Shown here: positions 19,838 through 37,356 of the stretch, one piece after another
Layout of the letters: every line of letters begins with the position of its first letter
Position numbering within the stretch: the first letter of the stretch is position 1
DNA from: Clostridium sp.
GTDB taxonomy: Bacteria; Bacillota; Clostridia; Clostridiales; Clostridiaceae
DNA length: 37,356 nt
NCBI GenBank assembly: GCA_022767515.1
Contig: JALENK010000062.1
Span: forward strand, 1 to 37,356
Direction of reading: 5' to 3'
Notes under the pieces: model-generated
Database searches by the model: none
Told to the model about the DNA's origin: nothing
The model's input: only the letters and a program-made list of their open reading frames with translations
Translations under genes and position numbers: made by a program

Positions 19838-21100
19838 ATGAAAACAAAAAGAAAAGGAAGAGTTAAAAGTATTTTATTTTTAGTATTATTTACTTTATTC
19901 ATTGGAATTTTTACTTTTGGTGGAATCCAAGGATTTGAGCTATTTGGATACGAATTTAGAACTTTTGACAGAGTAATTACAAAGGGGCTAGATCTTCAAG
20001 GAGGAGTATCAGTCTTAATGGAAATTCAAGAGGATGAGGTATCAAAAGAAGATCTTGAAAAAACAAAATCACAATTAGCTTTAAGAGTTAATAAAATTGG
20101 TGTTGCTGAAACTGTTGTAACAACTGAAGGAGATAAGAGAATAAGAATTGAGATTCCAGGTCAATATGATTCTTCAAGTATTGTTGAAAGTTTACAAAAG
20201 ACTGGTGAATTAACATTCAAATCACCAGAGGGAGATGTTTTATTAACAGGTTCAGATATTGAAAAAGCACAAGTTGTTACAGAACAAAATACTGGAGAAA
20301 TTCAAATTCAATTACAAATGAATTCAGATGGAAAACAGAAATTTGCTGAAGCAACTCAAAAATATATTGGAAAGCAAATATCTATTAATCTAGATGAAGA
20401 GCAACTTGTAAATCCAACAGTTAATACTGCAATTACAGATGGTACTGCTGTTATTACAGGTGGATATACATTATCAAAAGCAAAAAATTTAACAGGACTT
20501 ATTAATGCTGGAGCATTACCATGTAAAGTAAAAGCAGTTTCTGTACAAGTTATAGGAGCTCAGCTTGGTGCAGATGCACTTCCGAATGCTTTACTTGCAG
20601 GTGCGATTGGTTTAGCATTGGTATTCTTATTTATGATTTTTGTATACAGAATACCAGGATTTTTATCTTGCATAGTATTAACATTATATACATTATTAGT
20701 ATTATTTGTTATGGAAGAAATAGGAACTACTTTAACATTACCAGGAATTGCAGCGTTATTACTTACAATAGGTATGGCGGTTGATGCCAATGTATTAATA
20801 TTTGAAAGAATTCGAGAAGAGGTTAAAAAGGGATTACCTGCTAAGAATGCTGTTGAAAGAGGATTTGAAAATGCATTATCATCTATTGTTGACTCAAATA
20901 TTACAACAATAATAGCAGCAATAGTACTTTACTTATTTGGTACAGGTTCAGTTAAGGGATTTGCTGTTACCTTATTAATTGGTGTACTTGTAAGCTTGTT
21001 TACATCATTAGTTATAACTAAGCTTTATGTTAAGTGCTCAGTTAATGCTGGATTATTAACTAAGCCGTCTCATTTCAGAGTGAAGAGGGGAGAAGAATAA
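19838..21100 (+). CDS. secD: Protein translocase subunit SecD
   Basis: Membrane protein that uses the proton gradient to help pull secreted proteins across the membrane. From ATG 19838 (GAGGAGGAG just upstream; TTG 19823 would lie in front of the ribosome site) it has 420 residues. One helix lies near residues 9-29, followed by KGLDLQGGVSVLMEI, a large outer domain, and five helices with the conserved LLLTIGMAVDANVLIFERI block. SecD and SecF are separate genes here, unlike the fused SecDF of B. subtilis. The stop overlaps the secF ATG by one base, so the two are coupled. Confidence 0.96.
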   Translation: MKTKRKGRVKSILFLVLFTLFIGIFTFGGIQGFELFGYEFRTFDRVITKGLDLQGGVSVLMEIQEDEVSKEDLEKTKSQLALRVNKIGVAETVVTTEGDKRIRIEIPGQYDSSSIVESLQKTGELTFKSPEGDVLLTGSDIEKAQVVTEQNTGEIQIQLQMNSDGKQKFAEATQKYIGKQISINLDEEQLVNPTVNTAITDGTAVITGGYTLSKAKNLTGLINAGALPCKVKAVSVQVIGAQLGADALPNALLAGAIGLALVFLFMIFVYRIPGFLSCIVLTLYTLLVLFVMEEIGTTLTLPGIAALLLTIGMAVDANVLIFERIREEVKKGLPAKNAVERGFENALSSIVDSNITTIIAAIVLYLFGTGSVKGFAVTLLIGVLVSLFTSLVITKLYVKCSVNAGLLTKPSHFRVKRGEE

Positions 21101-22026
21101 TGTCAAAGATAGATGAAGGTAAAATGTATAAGATTGTTGAAAAGAAAAAAATTTGGTTTTTAATATCAGCAGCAATAATTGTTGTTGGAATAGTTTTTGG
21201 ATGTATAAGAGGATTAAATTTTGGTATTGACTTTTTAGGTGGTTCTAAGGTTGTTTTAGATTGTAAAGAAGGTTTTGATAAAGATAAAGCAGATGAAATT
21301 GTTAATAAGCATGTTTCTGACGCAGTAACTAATACAGTGGAAAATCAAGAAGATGGAAAAAAACAATATGAAATTAAATCAACTTCTCTTGATTCAGAAA
21401 AGTTTGCTGATTTATTTACAGAATTAAAAAATGATGCAAATATTGCAGATGAAATAGCATCACAAGAGGAAGTTGGTGCTTCGTTTGGAGCTGACCTTGC
21501 AAAAAATTCATTAATAGCACTTGGTATTGCATTTGTAGCAATGCTTATGTATATAGCTATAAGATTTGAGTTTAAGTTTGGTTTAGCTGCATTAATGGCA
21601 CTTGTACATGACGTTTTAATTACTCTTGCTTTCTATGCTGTTTCTAATATGCTTATAAATACTCCTTTTGTTGCAGCAATATTAACAATTATAGGTTATT
21701 CAATAAATGCAACAATAGTAATATTTGATAGAATCAGAGAAAATAATAAGTCTATGAGAACAGCTAGTACAGATAACAAGATTAATAAGAGTATAACTCA
21801 AACTATGTCAAGATCGGTTAATACATCATTAACTACATTATTTACAATCGTTGCTGTATCAATATGTGTACCATCAGTTAGAGAATTTGCTCTTCCAATC
21901 ATTGTTGGTATACTTTCAGGTACTTACTCTTCAATAGTAATAGCACCTTCAATTTATTCATTGTTAAAGAATAAATCTAATAAAAAGAAAACTACTGCAG
22001 TAAAAAGTGAAACAGTAGGTGTATAG
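21100..22026 (+). CDS. secF: Protein translocase subunit SecF
   Basis: Partner of SecD in the Sec accessory complex. The 308 residues show the first helix (IWFLISAAIIVVGIVFG), the NFGIDFLGGSKVVLDC motif, a small outer domain, and the helical bundle with ATIVIFDRIREN and MSRSVNTSLTTLFT. The last 15 residues are lysine- and threonine-rich and cytosolic. Translation is coupled to secD by a TAATG overlap. A terminator follows at 22040. Confidence 0.96.
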   Translation: MSKIDEGKMYKIVEKKKIWFLISAAIIVVGIVFGCIRGLNFGIDFLGGSKVVLDCKEGFDKDKADEIVNKHVSDAVTNTVENQEDGKKQYEIKSTSLDSEKFADLFTELKNDANIADEIASQEEVGASFGADLAKNSLIALGIAFVAMLMYIAIRFEFKFGLAALMALVHDVLITLAFYAVSNMLINTPFVAAILTIIGYSINATIVIFDRIRENNKSMRTASTDNKINKSITQTMSRSVNTSLTTLFTIVAVSICVPSVREFALPIIVGILSGTYSSIVIAPSIYSLLKNKSNKKKTTAVKSETVGV

Positions 22027-22039
22027 ATAAAAAGTTTTT

Positions 22040-22066
22040 AAACCTAGCATTTTGTATGCTAGGTTT
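22040..22066 (+). terminator. Terminator after secF
   Basis: An 11-bp perfect stem (22040-22050 with 22056-22066) with a 5-base loop, followed by TATTTGTATTTATTTT. It ends the yajC/secDF unit. Confidence 0.75.
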
Positions 22067-22093: not shown

Positions 22094-22122
22094 TTGCTTA
22101 TATATAAAATATACACTATAAT
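22094..22122 (+). promoter_or_regulatory. Sigma-A promoter of the recJ-like gene and apt
   Basis: TTGCTT (22094-22099), 17 bases, TATAAT (22117-22122), a strong promoter about 36 bases before the gene. Since apt follows closely, it likely serves both. Confidence 0.7.
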
Positions 22123-22157
22123 ATAAGTTGTTTTCTTATTTTATGGAGGGATAGTTT

Positions 22158-22988
22158 ATGCGTAAATATTGGGAGAGTATATATAGTCCGAATTATATAT
22201 CGGGTTATAATCCCTTTTTGCTTAAAAATATGAATAAAGCTATAAAGAAGCTTGCTTATGCAATTAACAATAGAAAGAAGATAGTCATCTATGGTGTTTC
22301 TACAGTGGATGGAATTTGTTCTATCTCATCACTTAGTTTACTTCTTAATTATTTAAATGCAGATACAGAATATCTTATTCATGAAAATAAGGAAGGAGCA
22401 AATACTATTACAGAGCAAGATATAAGAGAAGAAGTTGATTTTTTAGGTGCTGATTTATTAATTACACTGGGATTAGATTTTGAATCTAAAGCAGTGCTTG
22501 ATTTGTGTAGAAATTTAAATATTGATGTTATGGTTTTTGAAACTAGAAAAACTGATGCAGAGCCTGATTATGATTATGTTAATCCGAATCAGAAGGGATG
22601 CCAATATAGATTTAAAAATATATCTCTTAGTATTTTGACATTTAAACTTATGCAAGCAGTTGCCATATATTATAATATGAAAAGTATAAATAAATATTTA
22701 GATTTAATACTACTTGGTACAAAATGTGAAAGAGTTGAGGAAAAGGGAGAAAATCTAGTCATACTCAAAGAAGGAAAAAAGTACTTAAGTAACACTAATA
22801 ATATAGGGATTTGTGCTATAGTAGATTTAGCAGGAAAAAAAGATATAAATGAAGAATACATAATAGGGCAGATTACACCATCTGATAATACTGTTGGAGT
22901 GGTCAATAATGCAAAGATAATAGTTGAACTTCTTACAACTAATGATAGAGATAGAGCAGAACAAATTGTTAAATATTTATATAAATAA
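22158..22988 (+). CDS. RecJ-like DHH-family protein, truncated and without catalytic motifs
   Basis: The 276 residues align in order with the N-terminal part of RecJ, the single-strand 5'-3' exonuclease: NPFLLKNMNKAIKKLAYAI, then the strand before motif I, VNPNQKGCQYRFKNISLSIL, the GTK...GEN segment and an SDNTVG segment matching the SINAAGR region. The metal-binding motifs are gone. Motif I (GDYDVDG in RecJ) reads GVSTVDG at 46-52, keeping only Asp51; the TVDCG motif reads TLGLD; DHH is replaced by Glu-Thr-Arg at 128-130; and GTVAD reads GTKCE at 187-191. The DHHA1 and OB domains of full RecJ (about 560-780 residues) are absent, and the gene stops normally before apt. The frame is intact with a good promoter and a GGAGGG ribosome site, so this looks like an expressed non-catalytic protein. 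Its function is unknown. Confidence 0.75.
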   Translation: MRKYWESIYSPNYISGYNPFLLKNMNKAIKKLAYAINNRKKIVIYGVSTVDGICSISSLSLLLNYLNADTEYLIHENKEGANTITEQDIREEVDFLGADLLITLGLDFESKAVLDLCRNLNIDVMVFETRKTDAEPDYDYVNPNQKGCQYRFKNISLSILTFKLMQAVAIYYNMKSINKYLDLILLGTKCERVEEKGENLVILKEGKKYLSNTNNIGICAIVDLAGKKDINEEYIIGQITPSDNTVGVVNNAKIIVELLTTNDRDRAEQIVKYLYK

Positions 22989-23008: not shown

Positions 23009-23527
23009 ATGGATATTAAAAATGAAATAAGAGTTATTGAAAATTTTCCAAAGGAAGGAATTAGCTTTAAAGATATTACAACACTGATTGGTAATGGAAA
23101 AGCATTAAAATATACAATTGATTTATTTGTAGAGTATTTAAGAGATAAGAATATAGATGCTATTGTAGGACCAGAAGCACGTGGCTTTATTTTTGGTGTT
23201 CCTGTTGCTTATGCATTAGGTGTTAGCTTTATTCCAGTTAGAAAGAAAGGAAAGCTTCCATTTGAAACAGAATCAGTTACTTATGATTTAGAGTATGGTA
23301 CTGATACACTTGAAATTCATAAGGATGCTATAAAGAAGGGACTAAGAGTTGCAATAATTGATGATTTAATTGCAACAGGAGGTACTATAGCGGCTGTTTC
23401 TAATCTTGTAGAAAAAATGGGTGGAGAAATAGTAACACTTGAATTTTTAATAGAATTAACAGGATTAAAGGGAAGAGACAAGTTAAATAAATATGATGTT
23501 AAGTCATTTGTAGAATATGAGTTTTAA
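23009..23527 (+). CDS. apt: Adenine phosphoribosyltransferase
   Basis: Salvages adenine to AMP with PRPP. The 172-residue protein shows [24 protein letters not shown] (54-63), the RKKGKLP flexible-loop segment, and the PRPP loop [13 protein letters not shown] (114-126). GGGAG precedes the ATG. The order recJ-apt-rel is shared with B. subtilis; here the RecJ-like gene lies 20 bases upstream and a terminator follows. Confidence 0.96.
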
Positions 23528-23628: not shown

Positions 23629-23707
23629 TATTTGTAAGTATTGAAAGTTTAGCTGGTTTTTAGCCAGCTTTTACATTTTTAGATGACGGTTAAGGGAGTG
23701 TTCTTTT

Positions 23708-34276: not shown

Positions 34277-37200
34277 TTATGAAATCATAAAAATTGCATA
34301 TAAGGTATCACTTAAGTTTATATTTTCAAAACGAGCATCCTCATCTTTTGACCAATAGATATGAGATTGACCATAGTGTGCTCTTTCAAAAACAGTTTGT
34401 GTATTGTATGAGCAGGTATTTAAATTGAAAACAGTAGCTTTTTGTTTTTCGTAGATTTCAAAATAGCTTTTATTATTTTTTCCAATTTTATATTTTTGAT
34501 CAACCTTGTAATCAGAGTAATGCTGATCTATACATGTAAGCTCGACGCTTCCATCTAAAGGAAAACTTTCTGTGCTTAAATCACTTGCAAGTACCAAATT
34601 GGTATTTGAATTCAATTTGAAAATATCACTATTTGTCATATAGTCCATAAATGATATTCCAAGATTCATAGCATCAAAACGATTTTTAATTATATTAAGT
34701 TGAGTTCCAGAAAGTACATTAACATTTTTTAAGCTATTTTTTGTGTTTTGATCCACTAGATTTACATAATCAAAATTCAATCCAAAATATCTATAGCGTA
34801 TGCTTTCCTTTTTAACACCCTTAGCTCTTAAATGGTCAATCTTCGTTCTGCTATTTACAGAATAATGACGTGTAACTTTCACTGGAGTTATAGACACAGG
34901 TCTTCCGATTACATAACACCATTTTGTGCCGTTTTCTTCTTTGTGTAAACCAGTATCTTTAAGGGCTTTTAATGCACTGCTCCATGAGTCGGAAATACTT
35001 GTATCATCATCACTGATTCCTGTATGATAATCTGCAATATAAGAAGCAAAGCAGCCATATTTGAATAATGTAACAGTAAGATAGTTGTTCATATTTATAA
35101 GCTTGTCTTCAGCTTCTTGTTGGAAGTTGTAAACAGATGATATGTAAGTATAGTATGCATTTAAAGCCGAATTTGTATTTGTTCCAGAAATTGCATTACA
35201 AAGATTTTTGTATTGCTGAATAAATTTATTATTGAATTCATTCTCATCTAGTGTTTGAAGAGAAATTTTTGTTTTAATAGAATTTAAAAGCATTTCTGCA
35301 TTTTCATCTGTGGCTTTAAAATAGTCAACATTGTTACTTTTTAATATTTCAAGTAAATCAGTTTTCAATCCTTCAATTAAGTCATTGCTATATTTATTTT
35401 TATGATTTTTAAGTGCTTCTAGTGAATTCTTTAAGTTGCTGTTGTTAAGTTTAAATGTTATTGTTTTTGAAGGATCGATTTCAGTTCCATCCATTGATAT
35501 TAGAGTTCCTCTTACTTCACCCTTTAGAAGTGTCATTTTACCATTAACATCAAAGTAAACATCAAGACTATCATCATTAGTAATGAACTCTACAGTCTTC
35601 TTTTGAAGATTTGCAGTATAAGTATCTATACTGTTTTCAAGTGGCTTAATGTAATTACTGATAAAGTTTTCCCATCTATTACATGCAGTCTGAATTGTTG
35701 CCTTGTCAATGCCAATTTGTAAATCAGCAGTTGTATGCGAAAGCTTATCATTAAGGTCAACTATTTTTTTATCAATATTCTGAACCATAAGCTTAGTATC
35801 CAATACTATTGACTTTATTTCATCAATCTTTTTTTTATCAGAACTTCTAGTGTCTATTATTCCCAATAAACCTAGAATAGACTTTGATGTTCCGAAAGCG
35901 TCAGAATATTTTGCATTATAAACTTGCTTGCCCAATTCCATTACTTTTAAAACAAAATCTTTTGCTTTAAATAGAATAGCGTTATCTTTCTTAATTTTTT
36001 CTACAAACTCTTTAATTTCATCATATCCTGAAGCTTTGCTAGTTTCGAATAAATATTCTGCATTTGAAGACAATAAGTCAGAAGCTGTGCCCCATTCGTT
36101 AATAAGCTTATTATCAGTGAGTTTTACAATTCCTGAGAAAATAGTCTTTTCGACATCGTTACAAGTAAAGCTGAAATCAAAGGTATAGCTGTTGTTTTCC
36201 TTTTTTATTGAAGTGATTTCAGCATTTGCAAAATCTCTTTCAAAGGAAATATCAGTTTTTTCAAGATTATTTAAATTGCCACTTACAGAATAAATTTCAG
36301 CATTTGCAGTATATTTATTAGAATTACCTTCAGGCTTGTCAATAGAATTAATATTTACTTTAAACGAAGCCTTGCTTAGTGAAATAATGTGTTCTATTTT
36401 AGGCTCTAAATCAATAGAAAGAGTTTTATTATTTAATTTAGTTACTGCCTCATCAATATCTTTTGCATCAACATTTACATAAAGCTTGAATGACTTTTTA
36501 TCCTTTGAAATTTCTGTTTTTTCTACTTTGAAATTATCAATTTTTATTGAGGAAGCAAGCTCCTTATCAGTAATATCAAGCTCTTTACCTGCAACATCAA
36601 CATCAAAGCTTAAAATTTTGTCGCTGTATTCAAAGGTTGCATCATCAATATATACATCAATATTATTAATCTCGGTAAAAGCCAAAATTTCTTTTTCCGC
36701 ATCATTTGTTTTAGCTGAAAGGTCAACATAGCCGTACGGTGCGTCGGTAATCTTTACTGTTCCGACTGTCTGCAATTTGATTGTATCAGCGGATGCTTCT
36801 ACTGACGAAATCTTCAAATCTTTAAAAGCACCAGAAAGAGTAATGTCCTCTGCTTTTATTTCACTGACAGGCTTTGCGTTATTAAGCTTTAATTCAAGCG
36901 TAGGATTTTCCTGCAAATTAGCGTGATTTGTTGCAATATTACCTGTAGGAGCTGCTTTTTGGGTTGGGTCTATATAATCCGAACCTATTGCGTAAACATT
37001 GTCTTCTACACAGTCCTTGTGAACAAAATACATATATACACAAGCACTGTCGTATTCCTCTTCCTTATAGCTTAAAACAAGACTTTTGTTGTCTTTCTGC
37101 TCTAAAGGAAAGTCATCAACGAATTTCTCTTTGCTTACAACCTCTGTATCATCTGCTTCGTCCGTTGAAGATGAAGAGTCTCTTTCTTCGGTCGAATATG

Positions 37201-37356
37201 ACAATAAATCTTCTTCAGATAAAGGCAAAGCGGTGATACACACTTTATCCTTGCTTATGTCGGACTTTAGTTCTGATTCTTCGCTTGTCAGTGTAACGGT
37301 TCTCGTTCCGTCCTTCAATTCCGTTTCTGAATCAAGGAATATTGCGTTTCCGTAGT
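34277..37356 (-). CDS. Large protein of unknown function, 5' end beyond the window
   Basis: The frame runs from the stop at 34277 through the right edge; the first in-frame TTG at 37318 is not a convincing start because the frame stays open (YGNAIFLDSETE) to 37356. More than 1020 residues are visible. The first part is acidic and Ser/Asp-rich, then come about 300 residues of beta-strand-like segments alternating D and K with hydrophobics (e.g. KILSFDVDVAGKELDIT, NSYTFDFSFTCNDVE), which look like tandem Ig-like sandwiches. Then follows a long helical region with a hydrophobic GLLGII stretch and heptad-like runs (KLMVQNIDKKIVDLNDKL), and a mixed C-terminal domain ending SDTLYAIFMIS. No catalytic motif, cell-wall anchor or C-terminal membrane helix is seen. 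The architecture resembles secreted or surface helical-bundle toxins and adhesins, but only loosely. The 5' part is richer in G+C than the rest, hinting at acquisition. Confidence 0.7.
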   Translation of the reverse strand, partial: YGNAIFLDSETELKDGTRTVTLTSEESELKSDISKDKVCITALPLSEEDLLSYSTEERDSSSSTDEADDTEVVSKEKFVDDFPLEQKDNKSLVLSYKEEEYDSACVYMYFVHKDCVEDNVYAIGSDYIDPTQKAAPTGNIATNHANLQENPTLELKLNNAKPVSEIKAEDITLSGAFKDLKISSVEASADTIKLQTVGTVKITDAPYGYVDLSAKTNDAEKEILAFTEINNIDVYIDDATFEYSDKILSFDVDVAGKELDITDKELASSIKIDNFKVEKTEISKDKKSFKLYVNVDAKDIDEAVTKLNNKTLSIDLEPKIEHIISLSKASFKVNINSIDKPEGNSNKYTANAEIYSVSGNLNNLEKTDISFERDFANAEITSIKKENNSYTFDFSFTCNDVEKTIFSGIVKLTDNKLINEWGTASDLLSSNAEYLFETSKASGYDEIKEFVEKIKKDNAILFKAKDFVLKVMELGKQVYNAKYSDAFGTSKSILGLLGIIDTRSSDKKKIDEIKSIVLDTKLMVQNIDKKIVDLNDKLSHTTADLQIGIDKATIQTACNRWENFISNYIKPLENSIDTYTANLQKKTVEFITNDDSLDVYFDVNGKMTLLKGEVRGTLISMDGTEIDPSKTITFKLNNSNLKNSLEALKNHKNKYSNDLIEGLKTDLLEILKSNNVDYFKATDENAEMLLNSIKTKISLQTLDENEFNNKFIQQYKNLCNAISGTNTNSALNAYYTYISSVYNFQQEAEDKLINMNNYLTVTLFKYGCFASYIADYHTGISDDDTSISDSWSSALKALKDTGLHKEENGTKWCYVIGRPVSITPVKVTRHYSVNSRTKIDHLRAKGVKKESIRYRYFGLNFDYVNLVDQNTKNSLKNVNVLSGTQLNIIKNRFDAMNLGISFMDYMTNSDIFKLNSNTNLVLASDLSTESFPLDGSVELTCIDQHYSDYKVDQKYKIGKNNKSYFEIYEKQKATVFNLNTCSYNTQTVFERAHYGQSHIYWSKDEDARFENINLSDTLYAIFMIS

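Follow-up and report, generated by a model that had tools for sequence, protein, structure and literature searches.

A truncated RecJ relative without catalytic residues is retained under purifying selection in a clostridial family

Why would a bacterium keep, in the ancestral place of recJ, a gene whose product has lost the residues that make RecJ a nuclease? The question is raised by an open reading frame (ORF) on contig JALENK010000062.1 of Clostridium sp. (assembly GCA_022767515.1), of which we analyzed positions 1 to 37,356, hereafter the window. A first-pass annotation of the letters had described its product as a RecJ-like protein with degraded motifs in the recJ position, next to genes that we take to be secD, secF, apt, and rel, named by recognition from their translations rather than by family search. 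With moderate confidence we favor the view that this short gene encodes a RecJ pseudoenzyme: of the slot recJ, only the DHH half would remain, now serving as a folded docking protein without catalysis.

22158..22988, + strand: short pseudo-RecJ of 276 residues, DHH half only (ORF with ATG start, homology searches, structure match)

The 276-residue protein matched Pfam DHH at 43.8 bits (cut-off, 28.1), RecJ in the PDB at E = 7.2 × 10−17, and the NCBIfam recJ model (TIGR00644) at E = 1.6 × 10−35 with 122.4 bits, short of that model's cut-off of 396.9. Structure comparison likewise returned RecJ, with NrnA, DhhP, and phosphodiesterase (PDE) complexes listed as well. Homology to RecJ is far beyond chance, in agreement with the scaffold recognized at first reading. 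The NCBIfam match covers positions 21–298 of 546, and neither it nor the Pfam search gave a family match to DHHA1 or OB within the protein, the two domains already noted as missing. Judged by its sequence, the product is not a RecJ exonuclease: the metal ligands and DHH histidines are lost, DHHA1 and OB are missing, and the score lies below the curated NCBIfam cut-off; the activity itself is predicted to be absent.

The five motifs of the catalytic half survive as remnants.

22293..22313, + strand: motif I remnant GVSTVDG (RecJ GDYDxDG), in which D83 has a counterpart but D79 and D81 do not (alignment)
22467..22478, + strand: motif II remnant LGLD (RecJ VDCG or CDNG), metal-binding Asp replaced by G105, a position that is Gly in 89 of the 94 short forms (alignment)
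22539..22547, + strand: motif III remnant ETR, residues 128–130, replacing DHH (alignment)
22716..22730, + strand: motif IV remnant GTKCE (RecJ GTxxD), Asp replaced by E191 (alignment)
22887..22901, + strand: motif V remnant NTVGV (RecJ NAxGR), equivalent of Arg280 lost (alignment)

Residues were mapped to Deinococcus radiodurans RecJ by profile alignment, using those named in PMC4846377; taking D223 as the motif IV Asp is our own reading of that alignment. The catalytic D79, D81, D135, H159, H160, and D223 correspond to V47, T49, G105, T129, R130, and E191 in the window protein, with none of the six kept; motif I reads V47, S48, T49, and its sole remaining Asp is D51. The motifs are as degraded as the first-pass annotation had claimed, and catalytic residues have been lost in every member examined. 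Across 94 distinct short forms, the window's included, none of the six positions is kept in 48, one in 28, two in 16, and three in 2; D79 survives in 0 of 94, and D135 and D223 in 1 each. All six are kept in 34 of 34 full-length RecJ compared, one of which, L122, represents the front portion of a long gene whose frame is broken. L122, L124, and L131 stand outside the 94 and were counted apart, and L123 belongs to neither group. Loci were chosen by similarity and genus spread, not at random; some species are represented both among the 94 short forms and among the 80 slot loci described below, and a few contigs were retrieved twice as separate loci. An alignment of the short forms revealed no conserved acidic or His replacement at the lost ligand positions. 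Of the residues with which D. radiodurans RecJ contacts phosphate and bases, R109, Y114, and R280 are kept in 15, 10, and 19 of the 94 short forms, and the DNA contact F269 in 5; Y114, F269, and R280 correspond to N82, G237, and V248 in the window. Eleven active-site and DNA-contact columns that have zero entropy in full RecJ include seven that fall in the most variable quarter of the short forms (ranks 215–272 of 276); of the other four, three show intermediate variability and the fourth, G105, remains a conserved Gly.

Conservation has instead moved elsewhere in the protein.

22266..22280, + strand: conserved patch 1, N37-x-R39-x-K41, preceding strand 1, at the pole probably opposite the old active site (conservation; position inferred from secondary structure)
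22338..22373, + strand: conserved patch 2, L61, Y65-L66-N67-A68-D69 and E71-Y72, before and within strand 2 (conservation)
22668..22718, + strand: conserved patch 3, Y171-Y172-x2-K175-x4-Y180-x-D182-L183-x3-G187, helical part (conservation)
22794..22808, + strand: conserved patch 4, T213-N214-N215-x-G217 (conservation)
22935..22979, + strand: conserved patch 5, T260-T261 and the C-terminal helix R266-A267-x-Q269-I270-x-K272-Y273-L274 (conservation)

Family-specific residues, counted in the 94 short forms versus 33 full RecJ, are N37 (92 versus 4), L61 (93 versus 2), Y65 (93 versus 2), N67 (93 versus 5), E71 (90 versus 4), Y172 (94 versus 7), D182 (94 versus 9), T260 (88 versus 6), Q269 (93 versus 6), and Y273 (94 versus 6). 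The conservation pattern is inverted, in that the old active site varies and the new residue set is nearly invariant. Strands are predicted at residues 41–46, 69–74, 100–104, and 123–127; because N37/R39 and Y65/N67 precede strand N-termini, whereas the lost catalytic residues follow C-terminal strand ends, the two groups probably lie at opposite poles of the model. The remaining family-specific residues belong to the helical part and the last helix; the latter lies where the connecting helix of RecJ begins, and there the short protein is truncated. Together, the new residues may form one patch that serves as a protein-binding surface.

The gene shows no sign of decay. Ratios of nonsynonymous to synonymous substitution (dN/dS) were computed by the NG86 (Nei–Gojobori) method for named Clostridium loci, with non-independent pairs, dS often near saturation, and dS outside 0.05–1.5 dropped; the median was 0.091 for the short gene (113 pairs used of 118 computed), 0.106 for apt (117), 0.079 for rel (103), and 0.199 for secF (116). 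The window copy is no exception: relative to L036, its dN is 0.208, and the corresponding values are 0.202 (rel) and 0.289 (secF). The short gene is under purifying selection comparable to that on apt and rel. This, together with the finding that in close relatives the slot holds this dead short form too, rather than an active recJ, upholds the earlier judgment that decay explains the gene poorly.

We then surveyed its spread in f1, the family of the window's gene, whose named loci are mostly Clostridium. Of 35 relatives from the same genus, 34 carry the short form and 33 show a second match as well; the one lacking the short form, G012, is 83% complete and has no true apt either. In the family sample, by our tally, the short form occurs with an open frame of 255–341 residues in 104 of 116 genomes and in 40 of 46 genera. 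Each of these 104 genomes has at least two RecJ-type matches, the second being a RecJ of ~600 residues where it is among the matches listed. The full-length RecJ elsewhere in the genome, for which the first-pass annotation advised a search, is supported. Of the 12 family genomes without the short form, seven have the clean empty slot described below, G102 has no apt in its assembly, and the contig of G168 ends at apt. The other three, all of one genus (G069, G109, G133), gave no RecJ-type match at E 0.001 by protein or profile, though apt is present and completeness reaches 97% in two of them. A safe short form was not found outside the order, either among the matches listed for the class sample (148 genomes, 142 outside the family) or in the phylum sample (119, 118 outside, two of them also in the class sample). 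Frames below 400 residues in G261, G263, G305, G430, and G295, all within 226 bases of a contig end, and in G253, at 76–411 of its contig, were not accepted as safe short forms; in the order sample, G040 and G053 hold long RecJ with broken frames. In G061, a genome that lost the short form, a second long RecJ-like frame of 764 residues (C20:323350-324111) accompanies a ~595-residue RecJ.

Where did the short form come from? Among 80 short-form loci (L036–L115), its frame is open in all (255–313 residues); all 80 have apt downstream on the same strand, 79 have secF upstream, and 79 have rel beyond; the one locus in which secF was not seen upstream is a cut locus. The same slot holds a RecJ of 737–809 residues in nine loci of other families (L116–L121, L126–L128), and the recJ position claimed at first reading is supported. 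The ~600-residue RecJ had no secF, apt, or rel match around it in 18 loci fetched and is located elsewhere. Because the slot is shared with long RecJ and the ~600-residue type lies elsewhere, the short gene has inherited the position of the ancestral recJ. In a tree of 74 DHH regions with catalytic columns excluded (quick search, no bootstrap, unrooted), 38 short forms fall on one side of one branch (Shimodaira–Hasegawa-like approximate likelihood ratio test, SH-aLRT, 100) and 23 RecJ of the ~600-residue type on another (SH-aLRT 99), with slot RecJ between them. The short forms are one clade with a single old origin.

Another family of the order, f2, offers a parallel. Its genera g2, g4, g6, and g9 have long slot RecJ, g7 has a ~600-residue RecJ behind secF, and g8 and g10 combine a ~600-residue RecJ with a degenerate slot copy: L131 (G045:C2:21100-27000), broken into two frames, and L124 (G049:C44:300-7900). 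We rejected these two as early members of the short family; they group with f2 slot RecJ (fork support 81 and 93), and most new residues are absent. On at least two independent occasions the slot copy has decayed alongside another RecJ, but it was rebuilt and kept only in f1. In L130 (G042:C1:611700-618100), the gene immediately after secF is a ~591-residue RecJ, and no apt match occurs in the stretch examined, so that the second RecJ type occupies the old slot. A split enzyme, with the C-terminal half as a separate gene, was also rejected: among 20 relatives (G000 included), matches above the cut-off of the RecJ OB model were confined to frames of RecJ size and to broken or contig-end RecJ pieces (G040, G006), and one sub-threshold match lay in a 408-residue frame of G011, DHHA1 not being sought separately.

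How, then, might the gene have come to be kept? In the ancestor of f1, the recJ of the secF–recJ–apt slot would have lost DHHA1, OB, and all later parts together with its catalytic residues, and a second, shorter RecJ of ~600 residues from another branch of the RecJ tree would have supplied the nuclease; the order-mate family suggests that the second RecJ came first and decay followed. The remaining DHH half would have been retained as a docking subunit for one or more partner proteins, bound through the face opposite the dead site (N37, R39, Y65, N67, D69, E71), through the helical part (Y172, K175, Y180, D182, TNNxG), and through the C-terminal helix (R266, Q269, I270, K272, Y273). We prefer reuse for docking because the fold is kept, the chemistry abandoned, the new surface fixed, and the constraint strong; the structural role that the first-pass annotation had considered is supported as the likeliest reading. 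From ancestry, our guess is that the partner may act in replication or repair. Several observations weigh against this account. Clean loss occurs: secF adjoins apt with no gene between in G061, G073, G093 (where the secF match is weak), G101, G129, G146, and G158, and the short gene is not essential everywhere. In motif II, Gly105 is conserved, which leaves one active-site column under constraint. A very divergent copy, L105, has lost many conserved residues, such as N37, R39, N67, and E71. Finally, L124 and L131 decayed without most of the new residues, and degeneration beside a second RecJ alone does not create the short protein.

One rival, that recJ became redundant when a second RecJ was acquired and has decayed neutrally since, would fit the presence of that second gene, the free variation of the catalytic columns, the loss of the gene in several genera, and the parallel in f2, where L131 is already in two frames. 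A dN/dS of ~0.09 over 113 pairs, a frame open in 80 of 80 loci, a single old origin, and new residues fixed at 90% or more speak against it, and the low dN/dS and fixed residues refute it for f1; we give it next to no credence. It is rather unlikely, in our estimate, that the short form is a regulatory partner of the ~600-residue RecJ, docking on the active enzyme or competing for partners of that enzyme, such as single-stranded DNA-binding protein (SSB) or a helicase, and so setting the site of resection. Both proteins are of RecJ descent, and at least one further RecJ-type match is found in each of the 104 short-form genomes. The C-terminal half of RecJ carries SSB-tail and helicase contacts in other bacteria, as established for D. 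radiodurans RecJ; since the lost half bears these contacts, a free DHH half could be a natural modifier. However, the ~600-residue RecJ occurs without the short form in the seven family genomes with a clean empty slot and in G042, and G020 has the short form without a second match. The ~600-residue RecJ is a possible partner, but because it also occurs without the short form, the partnership is not required.

The remaining alternatives keep a ligand in the old pocket. A sensor of AMP, ppGpp, or cyclic dinucleotides that informs apt or rel, as the first-pass annotation had also entertained, draws on the nucleotide-related activities of these neighbors and on DHH relatives that bind mono- and dinucleotides (NrnA, DhhP, PDE complexes). 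We consider it improbable and do not retain it: the metal ligands are gone, the pocket residues equivalent to R109, Y114, and R280 are mostly lost and variable, and the apt–rel neighborhood is inherited from ordinary RecJ, as the nine full-length loci in the same slot show, and is uninformative on function. A hydrolase still active through a rebuilt metal site is very improbable. It could point to D51, E198, and N199, which the short forms retain, and to the one or two catalytic positions kept in many members, but those three residues are conserved beside the six in active RecJ too, and the lost ligands have no conserved substitute.

Compared with bacterial RecJ, a 5′–3′ single-stranded DNA exonuclease, the short form shares the RecJ DHH fold and sequence homology but is without DHHA1, OB, and C-terminal parts, has lost six catalytic positions and most DNA contacts, and has conserved residues of its own. 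The short stand-alone DHH/DHHA1 enzymes NrnA, PAP phosphatase, and DhhP have intact DHH motifs. They also have DHHA1, whereas the short form descends from RecJ and sits in its slot. The likeness to eukaryotic Cdc45 drawn in the first-pass annotation holds for loss of activity, an inactivated DHH domain under purifying selection being the common trait, but goes no further: Cdc45 has DHHA1 and acts in CMG with MCM and GINS, whereas the short form is DHH-only and bacterial. According to PMC4846377, Cdc45 retains RecJ's stacking and helical-gateway residues, whereas the short form lacks most DNA contacts of the DHH half (equivalents of Y114, F269, and R280). On sequence grounds it is not a Cdc45, as DHHA1 is missing and DNA contacts are lost. 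Tentatively, it could be a bacterial counterpart of Cdc45's nuclease-to-scaffold conversion, in which, once cutting had passed to a second RecJ, the native RecJ of these clostridia turned into a stable subunit without catalysis in the replication or recombination machinery, with a new interface opposite the dead site in most genera of the family; we hold this possible but doubtful. Inactivated RecJ relatives are already known in archaea and eukaryotes from PMC3307487 and PMC5484177, the former placing such inactivations in archaeal lineages, and the short form is of separate origin from these. What may be new is a bacterial, DHH-only, family-wide inactive RecJ. Among the papers listed in searches of the open-licence PubMed Central literature, there was no report on inactive or short RecJ in clostridia, which is weak evidence of novelty.

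The family matters in several respects. Since the gene passes the Pfam DHH cut-off, homology-based labels easily mistake it for an active phosphoesterase or RecJ. It offers a dated natural experiment, with recJ still whole in one family of the order, retained after a single inactivation in the sister family, and independently decayed in two genera of a further one. How an enzyme turns into a scaffold, of which Cdc45 shows just the end product, becomes testable in tractable solvent-producing clostridia such as Clostridium beijerinckii, whose orthologue is in L051, and the conserved residues point to an unrecognized conserved protein contact.

The immediate surroundings bear on expression.

21100..22026, + strand: secF, upstream neighbor, conserved slot (ORF, slot comparison)
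22040..22066, + strand: terminator-like hairpin after secF, z −4.23 (hairpin scan)
22145..22150, + strand: ribosome-binding site GGAGGG, ending 7 bases 5′ of the ATG (read by eye)
23009..23527, + strand: apt, downstream neighbor after a 20-base gap (ORF, slot comparison)

The frame and ribosome site are intact, as first reported. The promoter, also called intact, fares less well: TTGCTT-17-TATAAT can be read by eye at 22094–22122 but is absent from the list of the promoter scan, whose own matches are at chance level (10 found versus 12.3 expected). The 20-base gap makes a joint transcript with apt likely, and the hairpin would part the two genes from secF. A further terminator-like hairpin at 23651–23669, between apt and rel, suggests that rel is transcribed apart from them. 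TnpB-like transposon genes lie beside apt or between apt and rel in L085 (4486 side of apt) and L090 (4007–4903, turned), with the short gene untouched. At the end of the window, a frame of 1013 residues (34277–37318, − strand) has repeated, beta-rich looking stretches in which we recognized no function.
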